33,206 bases of DNA from a virus, in the IMG/VR virus record IMGVR_UViG_3300009152_000124, positions 1 to 33,206 of that record, one strand, 5' to 3'. The notes beneath the pieces were generated by a model, which was not told the origin of the DNA, ran no database searches, and saw only the letters and a program-made list of their open reading frames with translations. Made by a program: the position numbers and the translations under genes. Each line of letters starts with the position of its first letter. The first letter of the stretch is position 1. Of the stretch, positions 1 to 16,652 are shown piece after piece.

Positions 1-142
1 CAAACTGGGGGCCAGTCATGCTAGTGCCGGGTACGCCGTTAATTCCACCAAGGACAACTTGCGAATTATCTGCATTAATGCCAGACATTAAAGAACCAAG
101 ACTCATCATGCCGCCATTCGCCATTTTTTGAATTTTCGCCAT
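1..142 (-). CDS. Small virion-block protein, 3' end outside window
   Basis: Only the first 47 codons are visible; the gene runs off the left edge. It begins MAKIQKMANGG and is rich in Gly, Met and Ser, with no recognisable domain. The start ATG is preceded by AAAGGA at good spacing and follows the previous gene's stop by 10 bases, so it is the next gene of the leftward virion operon. Its KMANGG stretch matches the Gly-Gly motif shared by its neighbours. Function unknown; probably a minor structural or particle-associated protein by context. Confidence 0.7.
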   Translation of the reverse strand, partial: MAKIQKMANGGMMSLGSLMSGINADNSQVVLGGINGVPGTSMTGPQF

Positions 143-152
143 GACTCATCCT

Positions 153-551
153 TTACCAGTTGATGTTTTTCTTGGTTGCCTTGCCACCCTGCTTGAACCC
201 AGCCTTCTTGATGGCGCTGATTCTGTTGCCAAGCTGGTTCATCCCGTATTCCATGTCGCGGGCCTCACGCTCATCACCCGACATGTTTTGATCACGGTCA
301 GCGTATTGGTAGCCAGAGCCGCCAAGCTTGTTGAACTTCTCAGTCATTTCGGTGTGCTGTTTCTGGAGCTTTGCAAGGTTGGGGGCGTCTTTCTTCGCGG
401 AATCCAAGGCTTGTGCTTGGCGATCTTTCTTTCGAGCCGCAAGCTTGGCATCGGTTTCGGCGCGAGTTGGGCCCCTCTCAGACTTGCCCGACTTGATGCG
501 CTCCATCGCCTCTTTGACGGCTCTTTTGACTGCTGGGCTTGATTCAAACAT
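153..551 (-). CDS. Small Lys-rich Gly-Gly-motif protein ending in Trp
   Basis: A 132-residue, strongly charged protein, mostly helical, with many Lys/Arg and Glu residues and a possible coiled coil around residues 45-75. It ends in GFKQGG followed by a Lys-rich tail and a C-terminal Asn-Trp. The start has an AAGGAAA ribosome-binding site. The next two genes upstream in the operon (561-767 and 778-1290) also end in Trp, and 561-767 shares the aromatic-K-x-GG-K pattern. I recognise no enzyme family. Position after the capsid genes suggests a virion-associated or assembly role, which is inference. Confidence 0.75.
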   Translation of the reverse strand: MFESSPAVKRAVKEAMERIKSGKSERGPTRAETDAKLAARKKDRQAQALDSAKKDAPNLAKLQKQHTEMTEKFNKLGGSGYQYADRDQNMSGDEREARDMEYGMNQLGNRISAIKKAGFKQGGKATKKNINW

Positions 552-560
552 GATGTTTCC

Positions 561-767
561 TTACCAGTTGGGAGAAGATTTGCTCTTCTCGTGTGTTGAT
601 ACCTTGCAAGAACTCAGGTTGACCTTGCCGCCATTTTTGTAAGCTGTGTTTTGACCAGCGGAGCCAACAATCAAACCGCCAACATTTTGTCCATTGGCGC
701 GGGGTACATCGCTCTCTTCGATTGATGGGCCGCCAATTGCATTTGGAGTTCCTTGACTTGGAGCCAT
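561..767 (-). CDS. 68-residue Gly-Gly-motif protein ending in Asn-Trp
   Basis: A short Gly/Asn/Ser-rich protein. Its second half reads AYKNGGKVNL, then a Cys-Lys-Val-Ser-Thr-His run, and ends in Pro-Asn-Trp. It has an AAGGA ribosome-binding site about 6 bases before ATG. The pattern of a Gly-Gly motif, a Cys/His-containing basic tail and a terminal Trp resembles small hypothetical proteins I associate with environmental phage genomes, but I cannot name a family. It probably works with the neighbouring small proteins in the particle; this rests on context only. Confidence 0.7.
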   Translation of the reverse strand: MAPSQGTPNAIGGPSIEESDVPRANGQNVGGLIVGSAGQNTAYKNGGKVNLSSCKVSTHEKSKSSPNW

Positions 768-777
768 TTTGATTCCT

Positions 778-1290
778 TTACCAGCCGGGGCAGTCCCAGC
801 GCTTCAACGATGCCTTGGCCCTTGGCGCGTCACCCTTTGAATGCTCCACCACGCCACTCATTCTGGCGCAAAATGAATCTTTCCGTGCGCCGCCCTTGGG
901 CTGAGGAGCCTTCAAATGAGACCCAGTCTCTCTGTTGTACTTCTCGCGGCCTTTTTGGGTCAATCCAGCGCCTTTGGAGACCGGAAGCTTCTCACCCCTG
1001 CCGACAGCAAGAGAGACGCCTCCATCCTTCATTTTGGCTGTTTTGGCTGACTCTCTGAAGGCTTCAGCAGTTGGAGCGCCTTTTGCACCCGGCTTACGCA
1101 TGCGCTCACCAGAGCCTTCAGCGATTCGTTCACGTTTTGCATTGATATTTTCATATAGTCCGCCATTCTTCATTTGTTTGTCGGCCTTGACAAATTCTTT
1201 GCCGACCTTTTGAGGTACACCACCAAAGCCACCCTTGGTGTGGGCGGCGGCTTCCATCAAACGATGTTGGGCAGGTGATTTGCTTGGCAT
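778..1290 (-). CDS. DUF6321-like phage protein, 170 aa
   Basis: The C-terminal half carries the pattern I associate with DUF6321: GLTQKGREKYNRETG near residue 110, then SFCARMSG, then a Lys/Arg-rich stretch ending in RWDCPGW. The N-terminal half begins MPSKSPAQHRLM and contains two Gly-Gly motifs (QMKNGG, KMKDGG). The protein is very basic. The conserved Cys residues and basic character suggest nucleic-acid or metal binding, but the family has no assigned function that I know of. There is no clear ribosome-binding site. The start lies 2 bases after the previous stop, so translation is probably coupled. The family call is from memory of the motif, not a search. Confidence 0.7.
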   Translation of the reverse strand: MPSKSPAQHRLMEAAAHTKGGFGGVPQKVGKEFVKADKQMKNGGLYENINAKRERIAEGSGERMRKPGAKGAPTAEAFRESAKTAKMKDGGVSLAVGRGEKLPVSKGAGLTQKGREKYNRETGSHLKAPQPKGGARKDSFCARMSGVVEHSKGDAPRAKASLKRWDCPGW

Positions 1291-1292
1291 GA

Positions 1293-2066
1293 TTAGTCAG
1301 GGTTCTTGATTATTACAACGCTGAAGTTAGCAGAAACACTTGATGCTGTTGTTGCACTTGCACGAACCTCAAGGTCAGTTTTCTCAGGAAAACTTAGTGG
1401 ATAGTTCAAAGGAATCGCAAAAGCACCACCATTGGCACAACGACCTTGTAATGTATTGTCAAATACACCGCCTAAAGGTCTGTTATATAAACCAAGGTTT
1501 GTAAACGCATTAGCCGTGGTACATCCTGTTGCAACAAGGAAGTCAAAAATGTAACCCGTATAGCCAGCAGGAATGGTGTAAATGCAAGCAGTTGAGCCAC
1601 CATTGACAGTATAAGTGCCATATAACGTTGCAGGAACACCAGAAGTCACGGTTCCAACACCAGCGTAGATAGTTCCAGCCGCCGCACCACCAGAACCTGC
1701 CGTATTGACCATTAGATGAAATACACGCAAGAAAGTAGCAGTTGTAGTAACGGCAGTTTGACCGTTCAACGAAACTGTTTCACTGATTTGGTTGTAACTG
1801 CCATCAAGCCCAACAATTGTAACGGTTCTTGCGCCAGTTCCAGCCGCAGTGTCATTTGCATCTGAACTTGAAATTTTTATTGCAACTGCACTTGTAGGGT
1901 ATACATAAAGATTACTTCCAGTCCATATCGTTTCATATGAAGTGCCAACATCTCCGTTATACCCAGACACCAAAGTCTGCGAATGCCCGTCAACTTGACC
2001 ACGAGCAACCTGCAAATCAAAAGGTTCAAACGCGCCTTGACGGGTCGCGGAAGAATAAGTTCCCAT
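1293..2066 (-). CDS. Virion structural protein (beta-rich), 257 aa
   Basis: Rich in Thr, Gly, Ala, Ser and Val with almost no Lys, alternating short hydrophobic and polar segments: the look of a beta-sandwich or fibre-like surface protein. It begins MGTYSSATRQGAFEPF, with GGAG six bases before this ATG. An in-frame TTG four codons upstream is less likely. No enzyme motif is visible. Residues 60-150 contain repeated T-V-T-[IV] segments like those in 3541-4536, so the two may share a fold. Likely a head decoration, head-fibre or tail-associated protein; which of these cannot be told here. Confidence 0.7.
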   Translation of the reverse strand: MGTYSSATRQGAFEPFDLQVARGQVDGHSQTLVSGYNGDVGTSYETIWTGSNLYVYPTSAVAIKISSSDANDTAAGTGARTVTIVGLDGSYNQISETVSLNGQTAVTTTATFLRVFHLMVNTAGSGGAAAGTIYAGVGTVTSGVPATLYGTYTVNGGSTACIYTIPAGYTGYIFDFLVATGCTTANAFTNLGLYNRPLGGVFDNTLQGRCANGGAFAIPLNYPLSFPEKTDLEVRASATTASSVSANFSVVIIKNPD

Positions 2067-2086
2067 TTCTTTCTCCAATTAGAAGC

Positions 2087-2102
2087 GGGGGCCGAAGCCC
2101 CC
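2087..2102 (-). terminator. GC hairpin with TTCG loop, weak terminator or processing site
   Basis: Minus-strand GGGGGC-TTCG-GCCCCC between the 472-residue gene and the 257-residue structural gene. The stable UUCG tetraloop is notable, but only a poor T-rich tail follows, so full termination is doubtful. Confidence 0.5.
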
Positions 2103-2109
2103 ACTGGAT

Positions 2110-3528
2110 TTAGCAGACTTTGCCGCCACGCTTTTTGCCGGGGGACACCGTGACAGATTTCTCGGTCTTGGTGACGCTACCAGCAGGCGTCTCGAAGTAG
2201 TCTTTGCCCTTGTTGTAAAGCTCTTTTACCATGCTCAATGGATTCATAGCATCTTCAAGTTCACGGCTCGCCTTGTCAGACACAGCCTTGGGATTCTTGA
2301 CTGTGTACTTGTCATTGGTAGAGCCGCCTTCAGCAAAAGTGCCAGACTGCAAGTTATTCGCCACAGGACGGGAAACAGGCTTGGAAGGCATTTTTACTGC
2401 CTTACCTTGACTGTTAACATTCCCCCCCGTGGCGTAGGCTTTTTTTGAGGCATTGCCTCCAGCCTTGTAGCCACCAGCGTTGCCGTTGCGGACTTCACCT
2501 GTAGTGGTGTTGACTTTGCCGGGCTTGGCAGTATCGGCAGGACGGTTTTCCCAGCTTACATCGCCACCCTTAGCGTAGCCACCAGCATTGCCCATACGAA
2601 CGCCACCAGTGCCTTTAGCACGATCATGCTTGTTTCCGTCATGCATCTTGGTGTTTTTGTATTGAGCTTCGTTGCCGTTGATAGTGCCACCAGCGGCATA
2701 GCCACCAGCGTTACCCATCGTGACGCCACCAGTCTTGAGCTTGAGGCTTGTACCCTTGCCGCCCTTATGCTCCTGCATGTCGTGCTGTTTAAAAGCCTTC
2801 TTGATCATGGCCTTGTCTTGCGACTTGTCAGCCTTGCCACCCTTTTTGTAGGGGACCATAACTGGGTCTGGGTAGTCAAAAACTGGGCTTGGCTCTGATT
2901 TGCCGGGCATGCCGGGCCTTGGGTAGTCCATAACTGGGCTTGGCTCTGATTTGCCGGGCATGCTGGGCGTTCCATAGCTCATTCCACCGCCGCCGGGACT
3001 CATCATTTGTGGTGTTGCGCCAGCCGCTCCTAATCCAGCCATTGGCGCGGCTGTTTTTTTCTTTATGTTGTCTATGGCGCTCATAAAGGTTTTACCAATT
3101 GGGCTAACGACTTTATGCATTGGGTTCGCCGATGTTAATGCGGCGAATGGTGAAACTGATTGAATTTTTTTGTTTGGAATGCCCAAAAATTTTCCAGCTT
3201 TTTGCAACTCAGGCTTGACTTTATTAGCTATGCGACGCAAAGCACCGCCAAGACCCATGTGAGGCACTTTACCGCCGCCTTTGAAGTTGGGGTTCATTGC
3301 CTTCTTGCGATCAGCCATAGAGGGCTTCTTGGGGGCGCTTCCGCTCTCGCCTTCCATAGATTCACGATACTTGGCATCGCTGGACATTGGTGAATGACCG
3401 TGTTCACCCTTTTCAAGGTGCTTGGTATTCACATGACCACCCTTTTTCATCTTCAAGATGACTGTGGGTTCGGTGGTCTCCATCTTGGGCATCTGCTTGA
3501 AGCCCCCTACATTGTTTTTAGTAGCCAT
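2110..3528 (-). CDS. Repeat-rich Gly-Gly-motif virion-block protein, 472 aa
   Basis: A Lys/Gly-rich, probably largely disordered protein with at least ten Gly-Gly motifs, for example KMKKGGHV (27-33), PYKKGGKA (226-233), GYAAGG (276-281), GYAKGG (317-322), AYATGGNV (364-371), and KKRGGKVC at the C-terminus. Three GNAGGY units (272, 313, 349) form an imperfect repeat of about 36-41 residues, and MPGKSEPSPV occurs twice (190, 207). A short Ala/Gly hydrophobic section lies near 90-175. The start has a perfect AGGAGG ribosome-binding site, so it is likely well expressed. No family recognised. It may be a linker or internal particle protein; this is inference from neighbours. Confidence 0.75.
   Translation of the reverse strand: MATKNNVGGFKQMPKMETTEPTVILKMKKGGHVNTKHLEKGEHGHSPMSSDAKYRESMEGESGSAPKKPSMADRKKAMNPNFKGGGKVPHMGLGGALRRIANKVKPELQKAGKFLGIPNKKIQSVSPFAALTSANPMHKVVSPIGKTFMSAIDNIKKKTAAPMAGLGAAGATPQMMSPGGGGMSYGTPSMPGKSEPSPVMDYPRPGMPGKSEPSPVFDYPDPVMVPYKKGGKADKSQDKAMIKKAFKQHDMQEHKGGKGTSLKLKTGGVTMGNAGGYAAGGTINGNEAQYKNTKMHDGNKHDRAKGTGGVRMGNAGGYAKGGDVSWENRPADTAKPGKVNTTTGEVRNGNAGGYKAGGNASKKAYATGGNVNSQGKAVKMPSKPVSRPVANNLQSGTFAEGGSTNDKYTVKNPKAVSDKASRELEDAMNPLSMVKELYNKGKDYFETPAGSVTKTEKSVTVSPGKKRGGKVC
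2870..2962. repeat. Direct 42-bp repeat in the 472-residue gene
   Basis: Copies at 2870-2911 and 2921-2962 differ at two positions and encode the MPGKSEPSPV repeat. Likely an internal duplication. Confidence 0.85.
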
Positions 3529-3540
3529 GAAAACCTCCTA

Positions 3541-4536
3541 TTAGGAAACCAAGTTTTGGTTCACGCCAACTGCGCCAACACGAGTTGCGTTGGGGCCAAC
3601 AGCGATGCCGGGCAACAAAACACCCATCACTGTACGAACAATGCCGTTCGATGCAGTGGCAGGGGCGTATGTACCGCGAACATCACCAGTGGTGGTTGTG
3701 GCAGTAGCAGTATCAGCGGCAACAAAAGTTCCAGCATCTTGAGCCAATGTGTTATTGCTCTTGACGCCCACAACATACGCCACGTTAAACACGCGAACAG
3801 GCAAGCCCAGAACGTCGGTAGTGCCAACAGTGATTGCTACTGGCAATGCGCCACTGACTGCAATGCTGGTAATTTGGAAGAACGCTTTTTTGCCAGCGAC
3901 GTTTGCCACAGCAGAAGAGGTTGTACCTGTTGCAATTGCTTCGCTCATTGGCTGGCCGTAATAGTCATAACCAGACACGGTCAAGGTACGGCTGGTAGAG
4001 ATCGTGCCAGAGGCGGTGGTCAACTGAACTGCGCGAGGCAGGTCAAGTTGCAACACAGTAGTGCCATCATTGCGAACAACAGATCGTACCGAAGTGCCAG
4101 CAGTTAAGGTCAATGAACCAGCGGCGGCAGGAGTTTGAGATGCGGCAATGTTGTTGGTAACCAATGCTTGTGGAACAACGTCCCAAACATAGATGCGACC
4201 AAGGGGGCCAATACCCAAGTCCATAGGAGCAGGGTTATCAAACTGAATGTTGCCATGTGCAGTCATTGCGGTGCTAGACGCAGTCACAGACTGATTGATG
4301 GTGTATGTACCAACACCACCATTACCAGTACCAAAACCAGTAATGTATGTGCCGTCGGTCACGCTTGTGCCGTCAACATACAAGCCAACAACAATTGGTG
4401 CGCCTTGCAACAGTGCAGTCACGGTTAATGTCGTTCCAGACATTGAACCAGTAAATGTGGTGGTGTAGGTGCGAATACCCGTACCCATGTAAGTTTGGGC
4501 AGGGCCTAAGAAAAGGTCATCTGAAAATTGAGGCAT
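3541..4536 (-). CDS. Virion surface/decoration-like protein with Ig-like insert
   Basis: A 331-residue Thr/Val/Gly/Ala-rich protein with little charge, consistent with a beta-sandwich structural protein. Residues about 29-93 form a module with L-T-V-T, G-x-x-I-x-x-G and GTYTINQSV segments, a pattern common in phage tail fibres and decoration proteins. The rest has repeated T-V-S/T-V-G segments. AAGGAG lies before the start. It is directly downstream of the capsid gene but separated from it by a terminator hairpin (4564-4600), so it may be made at a different level. Best guess is a capsid decoration or head-fibre protein; receptor-facing function is possible. Confidence 0.7.
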   Translation of the reverse strand: MPQFSDDLFLGPAQTYMGTGIRTYTTTFTGSMSGTTLTVTALLQGAPIVVGLYVDGTSVTDGTYITGFGTGNGGVGTYTINQSVTASSTAMTAHGNIQFDNPAPMDLGIGPLGRIYVWDVVPQALVTNNIAASQTPAAAGSLTLTAGTSVRSVVRNDGTTVLQLDLPRAVQLTTASGTISTSRTLTVSGYDYYGQPMSEAIATGTTSSAVANVAGKKAFFQITSIAVSGALPVAITVGTTDVLGLPVRVFNVAYVVGVKSNNTLAQDAGTFVAADTATATTTTGDVRGTYAPATASNGIVRTVMGVLLPGIAVGPNATRVGAVGVNQNLVS

Positions 4537-4563
4537 CGTCTTCTCCTTGAAAAGTTTGACGAA

Positions 4564-4600
4564 GATTTAAAAATGGGGAGGAGCTTTTGACCCCTCCCCA
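4564..4600 (-). terminator. Intrinsic terminator after major capsid gene
   Basis: On the minus strand an 8-bp GC-rich stem (arms 4593-4600 and 4574-4581, TGGGGAGG with CCTCCCCA) encloses an 11-nt loop. It is followed at once by TTTTTAAAT. It begins 13 bases after the capsid stop codon. Stem plus T-tract is the classic Rho-independent form. It would make the capsid transcript end here in part, with readthrough into the genes beyond. Confidence 0.8.
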
Positions 4601-4612
4601 GCTTGGCGTTGA

Positions 4613-5527
4613 TTAAGCGCCGGGTGTGCCGTACATGGCACGAGGGTCAGTGAAGCCAACGTCGTAACGCTCTGTCGCCTTGTAGCGCATAGAGTCAGTC
4701 TCGAAGTCACCTTCCATAGTCTTCTCCAAACGACGGCGCATCAGGAGCTTCATGCCCTCTGGAGCGTCGGTCTGAACCCACCATGCGGTGCTGGAAGACA
4801 AACGTGACAACACAGCCGCGCCTTCGTCCAACAGGCCGATAGACTTAACTGGGTTGATGTCGTTGTTTGCGTTACCAGTACGCAGAACAGACTTCAACAA
4901 CACTTCGGCTTGGAAGATATTGCCGGGGGCCACCACCAATTGGCGGGGAACCAGACGAATACGCTTGCCGTTGTTGTCAACTGCTTGGCGGATCTGAATC
5001 AACATCTGCTCAAGAGATGTTTGAGACAAAACAGCGGCTGTAGCCAACTGGTTGCTGAAAGTACCGTTCACGATGGGGTGAGCAGTGTTGATCAGAGACA
5101 CGCCATCGCCGCCGGGGTAAGCCGAGTTGAAGGCAGTGTTCAACACGTTTGCTGACAACAATTCCTTGGTTTCCACCAAAGATTGAGCCAAGTGACGTGC
5201 ATAAGTCTGACCGATACGGATGTGGTCACCGTCCTCGTACAGCACTTTGGTCAAAGCGAAGGCCAAGCCATACACCTTGTACACATAGCGCTTGAGGAAC
5301 AGGACACCACCTTGTTGGTAAGTCACTGGAGTACCGTCGGGCAACTGGGGAGCGGCTCCGAAACCGTACAGAACAGGTTCTTCGTGGTAGTTGCGTGGGA
5401 TGCCGTCTTGTTCGCGGAACACACGGCTCCACTCGTCGGCACGTTGGTCATAGACTCCATCGAAGCATTCGTTGAGGATTGGTTCAACAATACTTCTAAA
5501 GTCCGTACTGCGCATTGGGGCGGCCAT
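4613..5527 (-). CDS. Major capsid protein (HK97-fold, Mu gpT-like)
   Basis: A 304-residue protein with features of the phage major head protein group related to Mu gpT. GGDGVSLINTAHP (139-151) is followed by a loop, LSQTSLEQ (about 167) and IRLVPRQLVVAPGN (190-203). In this group the P-x-x-LVV-x-P segment belongs to the A-domain. It lies in the expected place after portal, scaffold and a small head protein, has an AAGGAG ribosome-binding site, and is followed by a strong terminator, fitting a highly expressed gene. It self-assembles into the icosahedral shell. No N-terminal cleavage domain is evident. Family call is by eye. Confidence 0.88.
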   Translation of the reverse strand: MAAPMRSTDFRSIVEPILNECFDGVYDQRADEWSRVFREQDGIPRNYHEEPVLYGFGAAPQLPDGTPVTYQQGGVLFLKRYVYKVYGLAFALTKVLYEDGDHIRIGQTYARHLAQSLVETKELLSANVLNTAFNSAYPGGDGVSLINTAHPIVNGTFSNQLATAAVLSQTSLEQMLIQIRQAVDNNGKRIRLVPRQLVVAPGNIFQAEVLLKSVLRTGNANNDINPVKSIGLLDEGAAVLSRLSSSTAWWVQTDAPEGMKLLMRRRLEKTMEGDFETDSMRYKATERYDVGFTDPRAMYGTPGA

Positions 5528-5542
5528 AATTTAGCTCCTTAA

Positions 5543-6142
5543 TTAAGCAATAGCAGTAAAGCTACCGAAGAGTTGAGAATGTGAGCACACAACACGGACA
5601 ACCGTATATGCGTCACCCCATGCGTTATCAACGTATGGTGCGAGGTCGACAACACGCATTTGACCCTGTGTGCCGTTACCAGCGGCTGTCGCAGAGCCAA
5701 GAGTGGCTTGAGACAGACCAGTGGTGTTGGAACCAGCAGTCACGTTGGTGAAGTTGTACTCGTTACCAATAGTGGTTTGAGCCATCGAGCCATCAGCTTG
5801 GATTTCATAAACGATGTTGTTGTCGTTGTAGAAATAAGCAACGCATGAACCAGTCTGGAATGCAGTGCTTGCAGGCCAGTAGTTGGACACGCGACGACGA
5901 CCTGTGGTGTCAGTGAATTCAACACCAGCAAATGCACCAGACCAAGCAACTGAAGAGCCAGAAGCAGGGTTGGTTGTGAGGGCGACAATTACACCTGCCG
6001 AAGCAGAGTAGGCGACAGGTTGACCCTTCAGAATTTGAGTGGAATAACCTGATGTGATACCGTTAGCAAGCGCTTGGGCGCGATCCAGACCAGAAGGGTG
6101 GAACGCAGGGCGCAAACCAAACGGAGCGGATGTACTAGACAT
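5543..6142 (-). CDS. Small head protein upstream of capsid gene, probable decoration
   Basis: 199 residues, beginning MSSTSAPFGLRPAFHPSG and rich in Gly/Ser/Thr/Ala, with no cysteine-rich or catalytic signature. An AAGGAG ribosome-binding site precedes the start, and the gene ends 16 bases before the capsid start. Proteins of this look directly before the capsid gene are typically head decoration/stabilisation or minor head proteins, so that role is inferred. Its tail segment (residues about 150-199) contains several short hydrophobic strands that could mediate trimerisation. No other evidence. Confidence 0.65.
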   Translation of the reverse strand: MSSTSAPFGLRPAFHPSGLDRAQALANGITSGYSTQILKGQPVAYSASAGVIVALTTNPASGSSVAWSGAFAGVEFTDTTGRRRVSNYWPASTAFQTGSCVAYFYNDNNIVYEIQADGSMAQTTIGNEYNFTNVTAGSNTTGLSQATLGSATAAGNGTQGQMRVVDLAPYVDNAWGDAYTVVRVVCSHSQLFGSFTAIA

Positions 6143-6163
6143 ATGAAACTCCTTTTTGTTGAA

Positions 6164-6712
6164 TTACCCGTAAAAGACGGGTGTTTCTCTTGGTTGCCGA
6201 TCAAAATTGCCCAATCCTTCGCCTTCAATACTCACAAGCGACTTGCCGTTACTGTCTCGCTGACCCTGCAAACTCTCTAACTGGATTCGGACTTTGTCCT
6301 CTTCCTCACGAGGAAGATCATGATGCATGTGCGTCATGTATTCCTGATAGATTTCCATAGGAATCTTGAAAAGCAACAACTCATTGCATGAGATGTAGCC
6401 AACATGTTCTCCAGCCTTTACACGGTAATTTTCAAATCCGGGGAACTCATCCGATTTAACGGGAACGTAACCCAGATTCATCCGCTTATCAATGCTGTCG
6501 TAAGTGTTGGTTGTTGAAAGCCAGCAAAGATGCCACCCATCTAAATTAGGTGTCTTGGGCATTGCTGATTGCGTCCACTCTTCAGTCCACATCTTGCGAC
6601 GTTCATCTTTGGAGGGGAACTTATCTTCTGGTGATTGGCGGTTGGCGTCCCCACTTGAGCGGTCATTGCGTCCACCAGCATTCAAAGATTTTTTCAAACG
6701 AGATTCAGTCAT
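6164..6712 (-). CDS. Hypothetical protein between scaffold and head genes
   Basis: 182 residues. The N-terminal 45 are polar and basic, probably disordered. The middle (60-130) looks globular, with WHLCWLSTTN and a segment rich in aromatic residues. The C-terminus is acidic/polar and ends in FYG. No family recognised. It starts two bases after the scaffold gene ends, and AAGGT lies about nine bases before ATG. Operon position between scaffold and small head protein suggests an assembly or minor head role, by context only. Confidence 0.65.
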   Translation of the reverse strand: MTESRLKKSLNAGGRNDRSSGDANRQSPEDKFPSKDERRKMWTEEWTQSAMPKTPNLDGWHLCWLSTTNTYDSIDKRMNLGYVPVKSDEFPGFENYRVKAGEHVGYISCNELLLFKIPMEIYQEYMTHMHHDLPREEEDKVRIQLESLQGQRDSNGKSLVSIEGEGLGNFDRQPRETPVFYG

Positions 6713-6714
6713 GA

Positions 6715-7698: not shown

Positions 7699-7707
7699 GA
7701 TGGCTCC

Positions 7708-8154
7708 TTAAACGAAAGCTTTGAATGACAGAGGGTTGTCTGTGACCTTGGCGATCAACTCGTGATCATTGATGGTCATAAACAAGACGGGATCTTCGTC
7801 GTCGGTAACAGGGCGCTCCCAACGGTCTCCGCCCCACTTGGGAACTCGGACATAGTCACCAATTTCAGCCCATGTGCCCTCGGGCCAAGGTTGCATGGTG
7901 TCGCGGTTCTTGAAGGCGAGAGGGCCGATAGCCACAACCTTGCCAATCATGTTGTTCCACTTTTCGTTTTCTTTGGTTTCTTCGACCAGTACGATCTTGC
8001 CAGCGTACTTTTGCTTGATTCGGCGTAGTTGGACAATGACTCGTCCACCGAAAGGGCTTTGGCCCGACTCAACTTCTGGGAAGGCCCATGCAAGTTCATC
8101 TTGGTTCGGCAAGGTTTTATCGCCTCCGAACATAGAGATCACGTTTTCGCTCAT
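7708..8154 (-). CDS. GroES-like co-chaperonin, 148 aa
   Basis: The middle matches the bacterial GroES pattern. GGRVIVQL (36-43) corresponds to DRVIV. AGKIVL (51-56) corresponds to the AGGIVL mobile-loop segment whose IVL tripeptide binds GroEL, and the spacing from RVIV to IVL is the same 12 residues as in GroES. GKVVAIGP (71-78), GDYVRVPKWGG (99-109) and the C-terminal VLFMTINDHELIAKV follow in order. The protein has about 30 extra N-terminal and 10 extra C-terminal residues. The start at 8154 has GGAG at good spacing; 13 in-frame codons upstream are excluded for lack of a site. It probably helps host GroEL fold the capsid protein, as T4 gp31 does for gp23; this is by analogy. Confidence 0.75.
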   Translation of the reverse strand: MSENVISMFGGDKTLPNQDELAWAFPEVESGQSPFGGRVIVQLRRIKQKYAGKIVLVEETKENEKWNNMIGKVVAIGPLAFKNRDTMQPWPEGTWAEIGDYVRVPKWGGDRWERPVTDDEDPVLFMTINDHELIAKVTDNPLSFKAFV

Positions 8155-8162
8155 ATTTTCTC

Positions 8163-8204: not shown

Positions 8205-8223
8205 CAACGGATTCAGGGGTATC

Positions 8224-8400: not shown

Positions 8401-8564
8401 TTTTTCTTCAGTGAAGACAAGCCGCCTTGGGGCTTGCCAGTGTTCTTGACGGGTGTTGGCTCGCCTTTGGCCTTCAATGATGTGCCATCAAGCTTTGCGC
8501 CCATTGCCATGCGAGTGTGATAGTTCACGTTTTCGCCCATTTGCTCTTTATCCGATGTTGCCAT
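8397..8564 (-). CDS. 55-residue hypothetical protein overlapping portal end
   Basis: It starts at MATSDKEQMGENVNYH, with AGGAG seven bases upstream inside the portal gene, and overlaps that gene by 17 bases. It continues through a Lys/Gly/Pro-rich segment to a Leu-Lys-Lys-Lys C-terminus. It is basic, polar and probably disordered. It is coupled to the next gene by an ATGA overlap. Function unknown; perhaps a small particle component. Confidence 0.7.
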   Translation of the reverse strand: MATSDKEQMGENVNYHTRMAMGAKLDGTSLKAKGEPTPVKNTGKPQGGLSSLKKK

Positions 8565-11010
8565 TTGGCACTCCTTGTGGTGGTTGTGGTAATTGTGGTT
8601 GTTGCGGTGCAACGGGTTGCGCCATTGGTTGAGGCATGTTCATTGGAGGGATCGCCTGATGCATCAACTTTGCATTTTCGATGGCAATCTTGACTTGACT
8701 GTCCATCGCATGCTCCTGTTGCTCCGCTTGCAGTTTTTGGGCCGCAAATTGAGCGTCTGCTTGGTCTTTTTGGGTCTTGCGCTGGGTCTCTGCCATGCTG
8801 GTGTCCTTGACAACCTGCGCATCTGGCGGCAACTGGGGTGGCTGACGGAATTGATCGGCACTTTGCATCAGTTGTTGCAGTTGCGGCATGATCTGCTGGA
8901 ACACTTCCTGCGTATCCAAGCTCACATGCTGTTGGACAGAAGCAAAAATTTGGTCAATGATGCCAGTCAGCTTCGGATTCTCGTAGTTGTCCACAGGTTT
9001 TCCACCGCGAGCTTGGGTTACATAACCGTTCATGCGGTTCAAGTACCACAGTGTCATGTGTTGCTTGATGTGTTCAATGGCGTTTGGCGTGAATTGAGGG
9101 GCAAAGAACGGGTTTGCACCGTATGCAGGGTCGTTTGCAAACTGCAAGTGGCCTTGGATGTGGGCAATATGGTCTTGCTGGATGTACGCATAGGCTGGTT
9201 GGCCGATGGACATGGCCGCATTCTCGTCTGCCACTGTGCGCATCTCTGGCGCGGGCACGTCAATCATCAGTTCGTTGATGGCTGGAACCTTCATTTGCTT
9301 CAAAAACCGCTCGATGACCTTCTTTTTCTGGAAAACATCGGGGTTATCCTTCATCAGAGCCATCACAGCCTGCATCTGAGCCATACGCTGGGTCTCAGAG
9401 AAGATGTGCGGGTCGCTGACAGGGACAACGTCGGTGTTGGTGGCAAAGTCTTCGCGGCTGATTTCAAGGTCAGCAACCACCTCGCCCTTGCGCTGTTCGT
9501 CCAGATGCCAGCGGTTCAGGCGTCCAAGGATCTTCAGCACCCGTGCTTGGCTGTCGTGCAGTCGTGCGTGGATGGCAGAGAACACCACAGCGCCCTGCTC
9601 GATCAAGGCTTGGGTTGTGCCCACTGGCGCGTTGGCGTTGACGTCGGCAATCTTCTCTTCTGCGGTGGTAACCACGCCCTTGGCGGCTGAATCCAGCCAA
9701 CCCAACAACTGGAACAGCACTGCTGAAGGCGGGTTGAACGGCATTGGCATGGCAATCTTGCGGATGTCGTCGACACCGGGAGCCGCCTCGATCTCCGCCA
9801 CCTGAGTCACGTCCACCTGCTGGGACTGACCAGACATCTTCGCGCCCTTGAGCTTGAGCATGGTCGCGGCATTGTTGATGTGCGCAGAGTCCAGCAACGC
9901 CCGCAAAGAGCCCGTCAAGGCCGCTGAAAGTCCACCGATGAGGTGAGGTAGCCCGATGGCGTACACACCCCTCCAAGGGATGAATTTGAACTCAACGATC
10001 CAATCCAGCTTGGTCATTGTCTCGTCGGTCTCTTCCCAATTGCGATACAAACCAACCACCTCGGTGGTGATCTCATCAATCATCAGGATGTAGGGGGCGG
10101 ATTCTGCGTCAGAGAACTTGTCGTCTTCCAGTTCCAGCCATGTGTAGATGTGGAACACCTTGCGGACGCCGTCCTCGTTGTCATCCCACTGCTTGCCCTC
10201 GATCTTGTTGTTGGCCTTCTGGGCGGCGGTTGGCTCGACCTCTTGGGTGGCGCGGACAAAGTCGACGTCACGGTACATGCCCGACTTGACTCGGCGCTTG
10301 AACTCCCACTGGGTGATCTCATTCACGTCAGCCGCACGTTGGGCTGTATAGAAGTTGGTGGCCGCAAAGGGCAGGATCACACGGTCAATGGGCAGGAACT
10401 CAACGCATGGGCGCTTCTTGTTCTCGTCGTACCAGATCTTGAAATACTGGGAGCCGCCAAGTGGAAGCTGGGTCAGCAACTGCTCTTGCTCGTCACGGAA
10501 CTCTTCGATCTGCTCGGTGATCTGCCAGTTCATGTAATCGCGCTTGCGTTCGGCACGTTCGGTCTTTTCGTCGTCAACCTTGCCAAGGATCTTGGTGCGC
10601 ACTGGGCCGTCGGGTGGGAACAACTCCTTCATGGCGCGGGCGGCAAAGTCAACACAACCCTCAGCCATTGCGGGGTGGACGACCTTGGAGGCTCCAGCGA
10701 AGGTAGCACCGCCGGGGGCGTCATTGCCCATACCCGTGCGCTTCAGGCCCTCTTCGTACTTCTTGTCCCGCTCCTTGCGGGCCTCCTTGTCCTTCTCCAG
10801 CAGGTCAAGATACCGCATAGAGATGGAACTTAATTCGCTTGGGTTGATGGACTCAGCCAAGTTCTCATAGAAGTCGGGCGACTCTTGGGGGCCCTCGACG
10901 TCTTCCATTGTCACCACGGCAGACCCGTCAGGCATCTCCTGAACCTCGGTTGTCAGGTCAGGCATGTCGACATCAACTGAGCCGTCTTCGTTTTCTTGGA
11001 ATTCATCCAT
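8548..11010 (-). CDS. Portal protein, 820 aa
   Basis: A large portal with an acidic N-terminal tail (1-50), then a wing/stem region with GASKVVHPAMAEGCVDFAARAM (about 105) and PLGGSQYFKIWYDENKKRPC (about 180). A central hydrophobic section follows, with FKFIPWRGVYAIGLPHLIGG and GSLRALLDSAHINNAA, and a PFNPPSAVLFQLLGWLDSAA segment that probably contains the stem and crown. The last 130 residues are Gln/Pro-rich coiled coil. The portal dodecamer forms the DNA entry vertex and docks terminase. Length and layout resemble P22-type podovirus portals. Gene position between terminase/polyvalent genes and scaffold fits. The N-terminal DGSVDVDMPDL and DGSAVVTMED tags resemble one in the scaffold. Confidence 0.85.
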   Translation of the reverse strand: MDEFQENEDGSVDVDMPDLTTEVQEMPDGSAVVTMEDVEGPQESPDFYENLAESINPSELSSISMRYLDLLEKDKEARKERDKKYEEGLKRTGMGNDAPGGATFAGASKVVHPAMAEGCVDFAARAMKELFPPDGPVRTKILGKVDDEKTERAERKRDYMNWQITEQIEEFRDEQEQLLTQLPLGGSQYFKIWYDENKKRPCVEFLPIDRVILPFAATNFYTAQRAADVNEITQWEFKRRVKSGMYRDVDFVRATQEVEPTAAQKANNKIEGKQWDDNEDGVRKVFHIYTWLELEDDKFSDAESAPYILMIDEITTEVVGLYRNWEETDETMTKLDWIVEFKFIPWRGVYAIGLPHLIGGLSAALTGSLRALLDSAHINNAATMLKLKGAKMSGQSQQVDVTQVAEIEAAPGVDDIRKIAMPMPFNPPSAVLFQLLGWLDSAAKGVVTTAEEKIADVNANAPVGTTQALIEQGAVVFSAIHARLHDSQARVLKILGRLNRWHLDEQRKGEVVADLEISREDFATNTDVVPVSDPHIFSETQRMAQMQAVMALMKDNPDVFQKKKVIERFLKQMKVPAINELMIDVPAPEMRTVADENAAMSIGQPAYAYIQQDHIAHIQGHLQFANDPAYGANPFFAPQFTPNAIEHIKQHMTLWYLNRMNGYVTQARGGKPVDNYENPKLTGIIDQIFASVQQHVSLDTQEVFQQIMPQLQQLMQSADQFRQPPQLPPDAQVVKDTSMAETQRKTQKDQADAQFAAQKLQAEQQEHAMDSQVKIAIENAKLMHQAIPPMNMPQPMAQPVAPQQPQLPQPPQGVPNGNIG

Positions 11011-11013
11011 GTC

Positions 11014-14000
11014 TTACTTTCGGTTGGAATATCGTTTGGCCTGCATAAGCTCAAGCATCATGGCATCTGGGTCTGAATTGTATGCAACACGCCTTGTTGT
11101 GCCGCCCCTTGCCATACCTTGCGGCTGTGGGGCAGGTGGAGTCATTGCACTCATAGCTTGTCCCTGTCTTGTCATTTGCAAGATGTTGCTTGGAGATTGT
11201 TGTTCTGGCGCTCCTTGGGGAGGCATACCCTGCGGCATACCTTGTGGAGCGGGTGCACCCTGCTGGGGTTGTTGTGGAGCCTGTTGTGGAGCCTGTTGTG
11301 GAGCCTGTTGCACTCCACCAACAGGCAAAACATTACCTTGACGCACGGGCTCGGGCGGGAAGTACGCCTTGATGTCCATGTTCGGGGCTTCTTGCACACC
11401 AATATTCTTGATGTTGACTGTGCCACCATCGGCTCTGCGCATCAAATGTTTGGTTTTGAATTGCTCAAAATCATCGCCAAACTTAACTTTTTTTGCAGTA
11501 GGCTTTGAGCTTGCATGCTCATCGCGCATAGCCAAGTGACGTTGGGCAACAACGTTTTGCTCAGGGAATGCATGGAAGTTATCGTCGCTAAAGCCGATAT
11601 GACGATTGCCGCCAACACCACCACCCTCTGCGTAGAACTTGATGGGTTGAGGCGGGCTGTATTCTTTGCCTGCCGCCTTCAGTTGGTCTTGTGGCTTGTC
11701 GATCTCATACTCGCCCTTGTTTGCGATTGCATGATCAATGTGCTTGTCGCTCACGTTGTGGGTAAACGATGTCTGGTGACCAATGTTGCTGGTGGACTCG
11801 GTGGGCGTGGTCATCAAGATATGACCAGCTTCTTTTCCATTCTTGGTCTTGAAGCGGTTCTTGGGCAAAAACTCCTCATCCTTAAACCGTGAATCGGTTG
11901 GGATCATGTGAGGTGTGCCATCCTTGTTCTCGCCAACTTGAACCAAGCGCGGGTGCAGGATGTGTTGCTTTTGGTAGTCAAAACGTTTGCCGGCCACAGT
12001 GGTGTGACCGAAGTGAGCCTTGTCAGGTGTGGTGGGCTTGCCGTTGCCACCAAAGTGGCCTTCTGGGCCCTCTGCCTTCTCTTCTGGGGTCAACTCATGC
12101 TCTTCGCGTCCAGTCGTCCAATACTTGGCGTGAGTGATGTGCGCTTCCATCTTCTTCGACATAGGCGATCCGCGCTTTACGTCAGTCACCATGTAAGAAC
12201 CTTTGGGCGGGGTCTTGTTGCCCTGCTCATTGCGGAAGTCGCCCTTATTGTCAGCGGCCATGATGGTGTTGCGCACACGGGCTTTATCGCGGCCAATATT
12301 CTCAGAAATTGACTCGCCCTTCTTAACCTTGGGGCCAACGTTGGAGTGAGTGACGTAGTAGCCATTCTCAGGGTCGTGCAACTCGTTGGTCTTGCCATAT
12401 GAGTTGGCAATGATTGGTGGCTTGCCTTCAGCCTTGCGCTGGTCGTTCAGGTGACGGATCACATGGCGTGAAGTCACGTCAGTCTCATCCACTACGTTGG
12501 GACGAAACAGTAAGCGCTTGTTGCCCTTGTCTGCCAGACGTGCGGCATTACGCAATGAGCCAGTGTGGGCCAATATCCAGTCGTTGGTCATGGCTGGGTC
12601 GTGTTTGGCTTGCGCGTGAGCGGCACGTCGCACAGCGGCGGCGGCATATTGGGACTCAGCATTTGGAGCAAAGCATGTGCCCTTCTTGGTGTCCACAATA
12701 CCTTGCGCGTCTTTGCCGCCACCACAACCTTCGGTCTGGCCGGGGCAAGTATTGACAACGTTGTACTTGGTGTCATTGCCGTGTCCAGATGTGTACAGGG
12801 CATGACCTGCCACGCCTTTGGATGCATAACCAACGTGGGTGCGGCCTTGCGCATCTTCCTCATGGCGAACAGTGTCAAGCTTCTCGGACTCATCCAACGT
12901 GTTTGCTGTCCTGCCAATGTGCTTGGCTTCACGCAAACGGTTCAATGCGGCCTCTTCGGCTTCGTGTTGCTCTTCAAGTGGCTTTGCAAAGTGATCGGCC
13001 AATGTCTTCTTGTGCATTGAAGCCATCTTGTTCAAAGTCAAAGGCTCTCGATGCTCTTCTCCATACACTTTGGCGCGAGCCTCATTCATCTCGTGTAAGC
13101 CAATAGCGCCAGCCTTGGGATTTCCTTCCAACGTGTGGCGGGGAACAACAATACCTTTCACGCCGCCAGAACCTTCAGCATGAATGGTTACACGCTTACC
13201 AGTATCTACAGGCTTGGCAGAGCCACCCGTTGCCATATGCCTGCGCATCATCTCAAGCTTCATTGTGTCCATGTCGTCGCCCTTTGCCATGTGTACTGTG
13301 CCGCCTTGAGCATACAAGGGCAGGCCATTGGTTAATACGTCTTTGCGCATCTCTTCTGTGATGGGGAAGTAATGCACAGCTTTTGTTTGGGCTGGCTCAA
13401 CAACAGGCTCAGGAAAATGACCGATGCCGGGAGCGGCAATCTGCGGAACCGTTTGCGCTGGCTTGGTTTCTATTTGATGACCATGCAGGTGAGTCTTTAC
13501 GCCGTACTTCTTGCCGATGCTGTTGAGGATGTTGGGAACCTTCTTGTCGTAGAAGCCCTTCATGCCTTCACCGCCAACGTGGATGTCTTCACCTTCAAGC
13601 TGGTGAGTGCCCAATACTTGCGGGGCTTTCAGGAGGCGGTCGGCAACTTCTTTGCCAATGTGACTGGGCAAGTCTTCTTTTTTGATGCCAGTCTGGTTCA
13701 TTACCTCGCGGCGGTCGTGACCATAAGCCTTCAGGCGCTCTTCCTCTGGGTGATAGCCAAGGTAGCCAATGCGATTGCCAATGTTGTATCGGCTTGCCTG
13801 CTCTTCACCGGGAGTCACCACGATGCCGTGATAACCCTTCTCTGCGGCGTGGTGGATCAAACGCTTGAGCGCCATCTCTTCCCAGTTCTTTTTGAATGGG
13901 GCATCAGGGATGTTGCCTTTTTTAATCTTATGATATTCCAATAATTCATCATTAAGCTTCATTATTTGCGGAGAAAGACTATTTGCTTCATCCATGAGTT

Positions 14001-14919
14001 GAGTGAACTCTGGCCCATGAGTGGTCATATTTCTTGCTTCATCAAGCAAGCTTGTTCTGCGCATATTTAAATCATAAATCTTTTGATTGGCATCTTGGAA
14101 ACGTTGTTCTAAATCAGAAGACTTATATCCCTTCTCACGCCCCTGCTGATGCCAATCGGACTGCAACTCTTCAAGGTGCAATAGCTTCTCACCGTTGGGG
14201 CCAGTGCGGTCTTTAAGGCGCATGCTGGCAAGAATGTCGGGCTCCCCGCCAAAGTGGCCTGAAACGCCTTTGAACTGCTCTGGCGATGCCGCTTGTTGCG
14301 CCTTCAAGTCTCTTATTTGTCCGTAGAGCTTATTCCATTGATCTTGCTCTTCATTGTTTGTGTTGGGGGCTCGACGAAGCTTGGCCTCCAACTCCATGAT
14401 CTTTTCTTGGTTGTCAACGCCTTTGGGGGCTTTGATCAGCATCTCACGGTAGTTACTGCCGCCGGGCAATGTCCATTGACCGTGATGCGTTGGATATTCT
14501 GGTTCTACATTTTTTGGCAAATACTTATGCAAATATTTATCAGCATATTCCAATGCAAGTTTTCTTGCATGGTCTGGCGTAAATCCATTGTCTAAATAAT
14601 GATTAATTCCATTTTCATAAGCTTGATCCCAAGCTTGATTGCGCACTTTAGTGTCTTGAATTTGTTCTCCCAGAACCTTTTCACCAATAGCTGGCGCAGG
14701 TCGGATAGACAAGTTTGCCATGAACTGGTCGTGCGTCATGCGGGGCATGCCCATAACTTCATTGAGGCCACGCTCTTGGATCTCAGTAGGCTTGATGCCA
14801 GTTATGCCCATGAGTTCCTTCATGAACTCTGCGCCTGTGCCCACCTTGCGCTTCAAACCCTTAGCGGCCCTGTCAACAGCAGAGTGCAGTGGCTTTCCTT
14901 CGCCGACCAGCTTCTTCAT
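11014..14919 (-). CDS. Polyvalent virion-block protein, 1301 aa, with three-Cys domain
   Basis: A giant multi-domain protein. Residues 140-470 contain the block seen in large phage 'polyvalent' proteins: WTLPGGSNYREML (149-161), HLEELQSDWHQQGREKGY (248-265), PDAPFKKNWEEMALKR (338-353), and GIVVTPGEEQASRYNIG. After LYAQGG/HMATGG motifs (535-566), residues 570-1090 form a second large domain with CPGQTEGC and GTCFAPN (Cys 725, 732, 749) and RPNVVDETD. FYAEGG (1095) and RRADGG (1161) motifs follow, then a Gln/Pro/Gly-rich linker (1200-1270) and a basic tail. Amphipathic D-x-D-x-M-x-LE-x-M occurs twice (549-558, 1283-1292). The gene overlaps its upstream neighbour by ATGA. Such proteins in other phages are thought to be carried in the virion and injected; this is inference here. 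Confidence 0.7.
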   Translation of the reverse strand: MKKLVGEGKPLHSAVDRAAKGLKRKVGTGAEFMKELMGITGIKPTEIQERGLNEVMGMPRMTHDQFMANLSIRPAPAIGEKVLGEQIQDTKVRNQAWDQAYENGINHYLDNGFTPDHARKLALEYADKYLHKYLPKNVEPEYPTHHGQWTLPGGSNYREMLIKAPKGVDNQEKIMELEAKLRRAPNTNNEEQDQWNKLYGQIRDLKAQQAASPEQFKGVSGHFGGEPDILASMRLKDRTGPNGEKLLHLEELQSDWHQQGREKGYKSSDLEQRFQDANQKIYDLNMRRTSLLDEARNMTTHGPEFTQLMDEANSLSPQIMKLNDELLEYHKIKKGNIPDAPFKKNWEEMALKRLIHHAAEKGYHGIVVTPGEEQASRYNIGNRIGYLGYHPEEERLKAYGHDRREVMNQTGIKKEDLPSHIGKEVADRLLKAPQVLGTHQLEGEDIHVGGEGMKGFYDKKVPNILNSIGKKYGVKTHLHGHQIETKPAQTVPQIAAPGIGHFPEPVVEPAQTKAVHYFPITEEMRKDVLTNGLPLYAQGGTVHMAKGDDMDTMKLEMMRRHMATGGSAKPVDTGKRVTIHAEGSGGVKGIVVPRHTLEGNPKAGAIGLHEMNEARAKVYGEEHREPLTLNKMASMHKKTLADHFAKPLEEQHEAEEAALNRLREAKHIGRTANTLDESEKLDTVRHEEDAQGRTHVGYASKGVAGHALYTSGHGNDTKYNVVNTCPGQTEGCGGGKDAQGIVDTKKGTCFAPNAESQYAAAAVRRAAHAQAKHDPAMTNDWILAHTGSLRNAARLADKGNKRLLFRPNVVDETDVTSRHVIRHLNDQRKAEGKPPIIANSYGKTNELHDPENGYYVTHSNVGPKVKKGESISENIGRDKARVRNTIMAADNKGDFRNEQGNKTPPKGSYMVTDVKRGSPMSKKMEAHITHAKYWTTGREEHELTPEEKAEGPEGHFGGNGKPTTPDKAHFGHTTVAGKRFDYQKQHILHPRLVQVGENKDGTPHMIPTDSRFKDEEFLPKNRFKTKNGKEAGHILMTTPTESTSNIGHQTSFTHNVSDKHIDHAIANKGEYEIDKPQDQLKAAGKEYSPPQPIKFYAEGGGVGGNRHIGFSDDNFHAFPEQNVVAQRHLAMRDEHASSKPTAKKVKFGDDFEQFKTKHLMRRADGGTVNIKNIGVQEAPNMDIKAYFPPEPVRQGNVLPVGGVQQAPQQAPQQAPQQPQQGAPAPQGMPQGMPPQGAPEQQSPSNILQMTRQGQAMSAMTPPAPQPQGMARGGTTRRVAYNSDPDAMMLELMQAKRYSNRK
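11271..11310. repeat. Tandem 12-bp repeat within polyvalent gene
   Basis: Three perfect copies of a 12-bp unit (GTTGTGGAGCCT) plus four more bases encode a Gln-Ala-Pro-Gln repeat in the linker near the C-terminus of the 1301-residue protein. Copy number may vary by slippage. Confidence 0.9.
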
Positions 14920-16652
14920 AGGGGGCGCTCCTCAATCTCTAAGTGGTGGGCGTGGGTGATGCCGCCCTTGGCCTTGGATATAGCAGACTTTGTCTTTGTG
15001 CCTTTGTTCCAAGCGTAAATATCGCTTGGGTAGCTGTACAGCTTCTGCGGGTCTGTCTTTGTGCTGGCGCGTGAGCCATAGTCAATAACTTGCCTAGCCA
15101 CCAATGCATGACCCGGCTGAAGTTGTCTCGCATGTCGATCAAATGCAAACTTATCAAACCTACGGGAGCCATGCTTGTCAACAGTAACAGGAAACTCGTG
15201 CAAAGTATGAACGTTAATGTGCATGGGGGCAATGCCGCCAGCAAATTCAGATTCACCTTCATCAGTATGGGCATAACTTCCAGCCACATGCGGCGACGTG
15301 GAAGCAAAAGTAGCGTAGCCAACACGAGGCTTGCCTTCCAAGAATTCAGTTGGCAATTCTTTGTGGCCTATGCCGCCACGGTACAAAACATCTTTGACCT
15401 TACTGCCTTCAAGAAACTTGGCCTTGTCGACATCGCCACCCTTGGCATACAGTGATGGCTTGCCATACTTTGGATTCTTTGCCAGCACCAGTGGGCCGAT
15501 CTGAACCACATGCTCAGAGTGCGTGATGGGTTGCATGGTCTCGCGGTCATAGAAGTCACCATGACGGCGTGGGTCGTAACCTACTTGGCGGTAGTCAGGA
15601 TGGTTCAGATACTTCTTGAAATGCTCGACGGCCTGCTCTTCGTTGATGTGTTCAAGCTCACCCTTGATCCGAGCAAACGAGTTTTTGTTTTGTTCGCCAG
15701 TAGCAACTCGGATGGCCTTGTCAGGGGAACCCTCAAAAGTTGCGTTGCGCACTGAAGACACTGGGCCGTATGAGTTGGGGAGCTTGTGTTCGCCACTACC
15801 CTCTTCGTCGTGTACTGAATTGACCCACACGCCATGACGCTCGTATGCTGGGATGTCCAAGCGGAGACCAACACGGCGACCAGCAGGCCAGCTTTCATGT
15901 GCCCGCCAGTTTTGCTTCTGGCGAGGAAGCAGTATGTCCATCGCCCTCTCATTGGTTGCAGGCTGGGGGATGAAGTCATACTTCTTGACGGGCTTCTCTT
16001 TGGCGACCAGCTTGGCATAAGCCTTCTGCTTCAGTTCGCCCTCCATCAAGGCACGAGCGGCGGCTTCAATGCTGGGGTTACGGCGGCTGGCGGCATCATC
16101 AAAGACGGTAGGACGCACCTCAACCTTGCCACCCTTGTTCTTTTTATCAGTGGGCAACTTCACTGCGCCTCCATCGGCTCTTCTGTATGGGCGGCGCAGA
16201 ACATCACCGTCCTCATTGAACCCATGCTGACCGTAAAAATCTGACAAGCGCTCTCTCTTCGATTCGTCGCCTGCCGGGATTAGCATGAGGTTGATTTTGT
16301 GTTTGTCAGCCGCCTCGGTAATCTTGCGCATTGCTCTTGTGCCGTGTCCCTTGCCTTGCTCGTGCGCCTCAAGGTTTACCAACTCAACTTCGTTTGGAGC
16401 GTAATCTTCAAAACTTAAACTCTTGATGCCATGAGGCCTGCCAACTTCTTGGCTCATCTTGACGGAACCGCCTTGGGCTTGGCCCTCAACAGATCCACCC
16501 TTGGCCTTCTTATCAGTGGGCAACTTCACAGGGCCAGCAATCCTCTCAAGGTTGGCTAAAGCCTTCATGCGGCGATTGAACTCATCGTTGCCGGGTTTGA
16601 GCGAGTCTCTCATACGCTGAAGCTCAGCAAGTTGCGCGGGTGTTAAAGCCAT
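14916..16652 (-). CDS. Polyvalent protein with GNAT and ART-like domains, 578 aa
   Basis: Domains in order: a short helical N-terminus; Gly-Gly motifs KAKGGSV and QAQGGSV (49-64); a GNAT acetyltransferase-like domain (about 65-158) with the acetyl-CoA loop EQGKGHGTRAM (98-108) and the closing FYGQHGF; RRADGGAV and KNKGGKV (157-177); a third domain (about 180-400) with VGYDPRRHGDFYDRETM, typical of large polyvalent phage proteins; LYAKGGDV (401-408); and an ADP-ribosyltransferase-like domain (about 410-555) with DVLYRGG, FASTSPHVAGSYA and SDIYAWNKG. KAKGGIT closes it. The third ART catalytic Glu is not obvious. It may modify host proteins early after injection. First gene after the promoter at 16678-16705. 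Confidence 0.72.
   Translation of the reverse strand: MALTPAQLAELQRMRDSLKPGNDEFNRRMKALANLERIAGPVKLPTDKKAKGGSVEGQAQGGSVKMSQEVGRPHGIKSLSFEDYAPNEVELVNLEAHEQGKGHGTRAMRKITEAADKHKINLMLIPAGDESKRERLSDFYGQHGFNEDGDVLRRPYRRADGGAVKLPTDKKNKGGKVEVRPTVFDDAASRRNPSIEAAARALMEGELKQKAYAKLVAKEKPVKKYDFIPQPATNERAMDILLPRQKQNWRAHESWPAGRRVGLRLDIPAYERHGVWVNSVHDEEGSGEHKLPNSYGPVSSVRNATFEGSPDKAIRVATGEQNKNSFARIKGELEHINEEQAVEHFKKYLNHPDYRQVGYDPRRHGDFYDRETMQPITHSEHVVQIGPLVLAKNPKYGKPSLYAKGGDVDKAKFLEGSKVKDVLYRGGIGHKELPTEFLEGKPRVGYATFASTSPHVAGSYAHTDEGESEFAGGIAPMHINVHTLHEFPVTVDKHGSRRFDKFAFDRHARQLQPGHALVARQVIDYGSRASTKTDPQKLYSYPSDIYAWNKGTKTKSAISKAKGGITHAHHLEIEERPL

Follow-up and report, generated by a model that had tools for sequence, protein, structure and literature searches.

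The 33,206-base virus record IMGVR_UViG_3300009152_000124, analysed here over its whole length (the window), encodes late proteins in which a Gly-Gly peptide recurs, and comparison with related phages shows that this peptide is a short linear element, conserved at the protein level, that is found in late proteins other than those of the shell, both where modules meet and at C-termini. The element can be written as [Y/F/M/K]-[A/K]-x-G-G-x-[V/I/A], often followed within ~12 residues by a short amphipathic helix with the pattern [D/E]-x-M-[R/K]-x-[E/A]-[L/M], and it brackets swappable domains of large late proteins whose genes lie between those of terminase and portal. We refer to the 1,301-residue product of 11014-14919 as P1, to the 578-residue product of 14916-16652 as P2, and to the 472-residue product of 2110-3528 as GG472. 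The C-terminal placement, the Met helix, the GG472 family, and a similar seam in roseophages are features beyond those described in an earlier note on this DNA. Tentatively, we favour the reading that the motif is a modular docking or packaging tag that doubles as a flexible joint.

Abundance of the motif and its protein carriers

Copies were counted with the strict pattern used in the earlier note, [YFKR][AKM]xGGx[VAIT], and expected numbers were obtained from composition-preserving shuffles. The window proteins contain 17 strict copies compared to ~0.6 in the shuffles, which rules out chance arising from a Gly/Lys-rich composition. These copies fall in the products of 153-551 (one), 561-767 (one), 2110-3528 (eight), 11014-14919 (three), and 14916-16652 (four), and none was present in the other window proteins. 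A looser pattern gave 26 copies and added the products of 2-142 (MANGGMM) and 778-1290 (MKDGGVS, with MKNGGLY recognized by eye). The earlier figure of about 25 copies in seven proteins is thus reproduced by the looser pattern, which reaches all seven named proteins, whereas by the strict pattern there are fewer copies and only five of the seven are carriers.

The excess extended to relatives of the window. With a closely similar pattern, 1,241 open reading frames from 81 related or annotated loci contained 560 copies compared to 25 expected, and five nearly complete genomes of relatives, which were read piecewise, contained 15-20 copies compared to 1.2-1.6 expected, mostly in P1-like, P2-like, GG472-like, and small late proteins. 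In a second set of loci, homologues of GG472 carried 451 copies (11 expected), and no copy was found in homologues of the major capsid protein (47), portal (18), TerL (10), or GroES (19). GG472 belongs to a basic family with many motif copies per protein. Profiles aligned on the Gly-Gly pair, without requiring the surrounding motif, were highly informative at positions -3, -2, and +2 in GG472-like proteins, a set that was picked for at least five motifs and is hence biased; in P1- and P2-like proteins, which were picked by homology alone, the information at these positions was more modest.

Every protein with the motif is basic (pI 8.9-10.2), the major capsid protein, portal, and scaffold-like protein are acidic, and several C-termini of motif proteins are Lys-rich. 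This distribution is consistent with an element for ejection or nucleic-acid packing, which would help basic proteins to lie along the DNA or to pass unfolded through the portal channel. However, in P1 and P2 the variable position before Gly-Gly is frequently occupied by an acidic residue (Glu or Asp), so that the motif itself is not consistently basic, and we consider such a role improbable.

Module borders, natural swaps, and C-terminal copies

The motifs had been described in the earlier note as lying at domain borders, and this was borne out when their positions were scored across related phages. Among 90 dereplicated P1/P2-type proteins, which are related sequences whose counts are not independent, 1,410 of 3,051 homology breakpoints lay within 20 residues of a motif, compared to 366 (standard deviation 62) for rotated motif positions. 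After clustering of neighbouring breakpoints, 160 of 627 were near a motif compared to 75 (standard deviation 7), and 178 of the 223 motifs had a nearby homology border. Single cases are clearer, and in these the gains, losses, and swaps of modules in relatives end at motifs. From a point within the YAQGGTV motif of P1, the DNA of relative L004 continues at 97% identity to the window, and what precedes that point is unrelated. The P2 of L004 retains residues 1-57 and 162-407, two segments whose ends fall within motifs or next to them, and it lacks the GNAT-like and ART-like modules. Seven other contigs share P2 only over residues 153-412, 403-564, 189-406, 397-558, 157-409, 190-406, or 391-567, roughly from motif to motif, and P2 comprises three separable modules. 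Internal segment ends in P2 lay within 10 residues of a motif in 20 of 23 cases compared to 5.1 expected (P = 0.028 under rigid rotation, a test limited by the clustering of ends). The segments between motifs formed 17 clusters with at least three members, 16 of which had more than one kind of neighbour. In P1, MW202545 shares residues 544-1132 only, and L007, L010, and L016 have the protein split into two genes at a Gly-Gly/helix seam.

Structure models and a natural fusion gave the same picture. The AlphaFold models were modest (mean pLDDT 56 and 61), and their pLDDT fell below 50 at residue 539 of P1, the first Gly of the first motif, and at residues 399-413 and 559-578 of P2. The joints of a 170-residue fusion protein also carry motifs, and its mini-protein parts are separate genes in cyanophage S-RIP1 and phage DSL-LC05. 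All this would be expected of a plain flexible joint, that is, a Gly-Gly turn tolerated between domains that fold independently, at a seam that late-gene recombination reuses, with neither a partner nor a packaging role: the motifs sit at nearly all module seams, in stretches that are modelled with low confidence and are probably disordered, and the fused mini-proteins have them at their joints while the separate ones elsewhere do not. However, many copies lie near C-termini with no domain beyond them. In 55 of the 78 motif-bearing cargo proteins the last motif was located 10-35 residues from the C-terminus, compared to 6.5 expected. Moreover, positions -3, -2, and +2 and the Met helix show a conservation, in part invariant, that exceeds the needs of a spacer. 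The helix element [DE]xM[KRMT]x[EAM][LIM] occurred in 48 of 156 unique downstream flanks, compared to 3 upstream and 0.3 in shuffles, and a P1 alignment with rows 35-75% identical to the window shows no change at Gly539, Gly566, or Met553. GG472, finally, bears many copies but shows no clear domains that these could connect. Copies near C-termini, residues that do not vary, and the GG472 family with its multiple copies together argue against a pure linker, which we regard as a possible but rather unlikely explanation.

The P2 tail provides a further example of C-terminal placement. In a scan of IMG/VR, the peptide THAHHL(E/D)IEERP was found in 76 contigs behind 14 upstream module clusters, and Gly-Gly directly preceded it in 36 of 44 unique tails. 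Part of this conservation may act on DNA, because the tail codons resemble the P1 ribosome-binding site: the last codons of P2 (window 14916-14975) appear to encode EERPL together with that site and the overlapping ATGA start of P1. A conserved tail ending in EERPL was for this reason rejected as a tag in its own right, and only the part preceding these codons is informative. The preceding residues THAHHL are conserved in the 76 contigs for no obvious reason.

A similar seam was found in cultured HMO-2011-type roseophages, in which a module related to part of P2, or another module, is followed by a YAEGGSVMDKQMEMAF-like sequence. In CRP-207, CRP-9, CRP-13, CRP-2, and MW202701, a Gly-Gly element with a Met helix precedes the GEYV module of the seam AxGGxV ... 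DDIPAxLSxGEYV, and in HMO-2011 and CRP-1 the protein starts at the helix of the seam. HMO-2011-type portals were absent among the matches to the window portal. The GEYV module was not seen in window proteins; the link consists of seam similarity only. In Caulobacter phage RW, gp66 (L083 4433-6175) ends exactly in YMDGGRV and holds MARGGYAVKGPGTGRSDSI...GEYVI, a tape-measure-like C-terminal module beside the same kind of Gly-Gly peptide.

We also analyzed whether the conservation resides in the peptide or in the DNA. The Gly codons vary among the motif copies of the window, 15% of the motif pairs within single proteins had identical GG hexamers, compared to 10% expected, and a single orthologous motif occurred in 33 DNA versions. 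Such synonymous variation indicates that selection acts on the peptide. It also rules out that the motifs are copied repeat DNA, and the five short arrays reported by TRF are not motif copies. The earlier suggestion of a standard linker spread by duplication therefore survives as a joint between swapped modules but not as duplicated DNA, and it leaves the C-terminal copies and invariant residues unexplained. The same data bear on a recombination seam at the DNA level, in which the codons would be preserved because they offer a brief stretch of homology for exchanging modules, with the peptide as a by-product. Module exchange does break at motif codons, and the choice of codons differs from background at the first Gly and the Ala. 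Nevertheless, the low agreement of hexamers and the many DNA versions have already largely refuted this idea, and we consider it very improbable.

Genomic setting and features of the window

The genes for P1 and P2 are encoded among virion genes between terminase and portal, an order that MW202545 keeps, and a GroES-like protein and the major capsid protein are also encoded in the window on the minus strand (Table 1). We speak of a virion block because of gene order and homology. The nearest annotated portal relatives are those of MW202545 (uncultured phage, Manatee Spring; 72%) and of the Caulobacter phages RW, KcrB, RLK, and GB2A (49%), followed by Roseobacter and Pelagibacter phages. The phages that carry the motif at joints and tail ends of late proteins are a freshwater family.

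Table 1. Coordinates of the late proteins, modules, and Gly-Gly motifs in the window
Feature	Position	Strand	Comment
N-terminal motif MANGGMM	104..124	-	in protein cut by window end
C-terminal motif FKQGGKA	177..197	-	in 132-residue protein
Motif YKNGGKV	621..641	-	in 68-residue protein
170-residue fusion of mini-proteins	778..1290	-	phrog_16028 and DUF6321 parts, with Gly-Gly motifs at the joints
Joint motif MKDGGVS	1012..1032	-	residues 87-93 of 170-residue protein
Joint motif MKNGGLY	1153..1173	-	residues 40-46 of 170-residue protein
GG472	2110..3528	-	basic, Gly/Lys-rich; 8 strict (10 loose) motifs, last at C-terminus
Portal	8548-11010	-	
P1, modular late protein	11014..14919	-	five motif copies, three of them strict
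C-terminal helix element PDAMMLE(L)	11050..11070	-	P1 1284-1290
C-terminal motif MARGGTT	11095..11115	-	P1 1269-1275
Motif RADGGTV	11416..11436	-	P1 1162-1168
Motif YAEGGGV	11614..11634	-	P1 1096-1102
GP88-like / three-Cys module	11635..13215	-	P1 569-1095
Motif MATGGSA	13216..13236	-	P1 562-568
Helix element DTMKLEM	13249..13269	-	P1 551-557; Met553 invariant
Motif YAQGGTV	13294..13314	-	P1 536-542; natural swap breakpoint in L004
Folded N-terminal domain	13315..14919	-	P1 1-535
P2, modular late protein	14916..16652	-	six motif copies (strict 4)
Conserved P2 tail (T)HAHHLEIEERPL	14919..14954	-	final codons probably also P1 ribosome-binding site
C-terminal motif KAKGGIT	14955..14975	-	P2 560-566
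ART-like module	14976..15428	-	P2 409-559
Motif YAKGGDV	15429..15449	-	P2 402-408; pLDDT dip 399-413
L5 gp82-like module	15450..16121	-	P2 178-401; moves motif to motif in other contigs
Motif KNKGGKV	16122..16142	-	P2 171-177
Motif RADGGAV	16161..16181	-	P2 158-164
GNAT-like module	16182..16460	-	P2 65-157; missing from L004; Pfam below cut-off
Motif QAQGGSV	16461..16481	-	P2 58-64
Motif KAKGGSV	16488..16508	-	P2 49-55, ahead of GNAT-like module
Terminase	16893-18320	-	

The three-Cys region of P1 overlaps a PF17338 GP88 match just below the cut-off. Residues 1-535 of P1 form a well-conserved fold with a long helical insert, for which Pfam, NCBIfam, and PDB sequence searches gave no convincing match and a fold search gave very weak acetyltransferase-like matches alone; P1 as a whole had no match in a PDB sequence search and nothing convincing in a fold search. 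A perfect 12-base tandem repeat of 3.4 copies (window 11270-11310) encodes Gln/Pro-rich APQQ repeats before the C-terminal motif of P1. The ART-like module of P2 weakly resembles a PARP-type fold (Foldseek E 0.018, probability 0.93), the Pfam match of the GNAT-like module is below its cut-off, and a PDB sequence search with P2 returned weak GCN5-type matches alone (E 0.19 or worse).

Elsewhere in the window, a single tRNA gene, tRNA-Met (CAT), lies between terminase and P2 (16707-16781), and a tRNA-Val occupies a similar position in Caulobacter phage RW. A strong terminator-like hairpin (4574-4600, minus strand) immediately follows the gene for the major capsid protein. Promoter and terminator scans were near the shuffled expectation, and an NCBIfam scan gave one match, to SMC, which is meaningless.

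Possible processing, proposed docking, and known loading systems

The earlier note had also offered the motif as a processing site that releases domains after injection. In a wider form of this idea, a phage or host protease would cut behind Gly-Gly, either while the head matures or once the protein has been injected, and so free the single domains. The position of the motifs at domain borders is consistent with such cutting, and some phage head and polyvalent proteins are indeed processed (PMC5512222, PMC9026906). However, searches of 14 related records found no HK97-type prohead protease (PF04586, control positive), no C39 double-glycine peptidase (PF03412, control positive in 8 genomes), and no Clp-type protease (PF00574, positive control elsewhere), so that phage-encoded proteases of these three types were rejected as candidates; a search for the T4-type protease (PF03420) was uninformative, as no positive control responded. 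Self-processing by a zincin peptidase was ruled out by the lack of HExxH in P1 and P2 of the window. Furthermore, cleavage at the copies near C-termini would free only tails of 14-25 residues and release no domain. Processing is thus disfavoured, and we give it little chance. A P2-type homologue in another contig (L062 7080-10004) does contain two HExxH sequences (HEAAHEYSRKH and HEVQHAVQDIE), possibly a zincin peptidase module as in polyvalent proteins.

A sorting or packaging tag fits best of the three ideas in the earlier note, and we propose the following mechanism for the docking tag. The motif-bearing late proteins would be carried inside the particle and injected, as has been argued for polyvalent proteins (PMC5512222). 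The element would dock them inside the procapsid, and a domain spliced between two copies would thereby be loaded. The Gly-Gly turn would act as a flexible joint at which neighbouring domains fold on their own and can be swapped, and the GG472 family, with many copies in each protein, would be a multivalent partner or a competitor for the same binding site. Several observations weigh against this proposal. No binding partner was identified and no virion proteomics was found for any carrier, about a dozen of the 90 cargo homologues, several of them fragments, are without a strict copy, and a flexible-joint role alone would also yield the enrichment at borders. In addition, the mini-protein homologues in S-RIP1 and DSL-LC05 lack the motif, which is therefore not generally needed for those modules.

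The closest known counterparts of P1 and P2 are the polyvalent proteins of phages and conjugative elements, large multidomain late proteins that are mosaic and presumed to be packaged and injected (Iyer et al. 2017, PMC5512222). Both groups are encoded beside terminase and portal in highly mosaic arrangements. Polyvalent proteins carry effector-type enzymatic domains such as ART and GNAT, for which P2 has candidate modules with a weak fold match (ART) or a Pfam match below cut-off (GNAT). P1 and P2 likewise combine distinct domains in varied ways and are encoded among virion genes, but they lack the HExxH zincin that is tied to processing in polyvalent proteins; as this zincin is frequent there but not universal, its absence is not decisive. 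The text of PMC5512222 contains neither 'glycine' nor 'linker' in a term search. As for the tag itself, the capsid targeting sequences of phages T4 and P1 are short N-terminal peptides that direct proteins into the head (PMC9026906, PMC9024508). There, as we propose here, different proteins enter the head by means of a short peptide that is distinct from the folded part of the cargo; however, those signals are N-terminal, whereas the window element is internal, C-terminal, and repeated. The T4 signal is cut off by gp21; in the 14 related records no HK97-type prohead protease was found, and the search for the T4-type protease had no responding control. Encapsulin cargo-loading peptides form a short C-terminal tail behind a flexible stretch on unrelated cargo. 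They differ in sequence from the window element and dock to a groove of the shell, whereas the window element is also found between domains and its docking is a proposal. For Gly-Gly cleavage sites of the C39 leader type, the cognate protease is among those not found in the 14 related records. Literature searches in an open library found no phage cargo tag that consists of a Gly-Gly motif or of another short linear motif.

More broadly, many aquatic phages might share one cargo-loading code, in which each domain is followed by a Gly-Gly turn and Met helix that are read by a common procapsid docking site, a multi-copy protein serves as hub, and whatever domain is inserted between two tags would be injected as cargo; in this general form the idea is doubtful. 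Loading signals for changing sets of injected proteins are known for few cases, such as the N-terminal targeting sequences of T4 and P1. A seam element that is conserved while its flanking domains swap would be a concrete, testable loading code, and it would provide a simple guide to module borders and to new injected domains in unannotated phage genomes.

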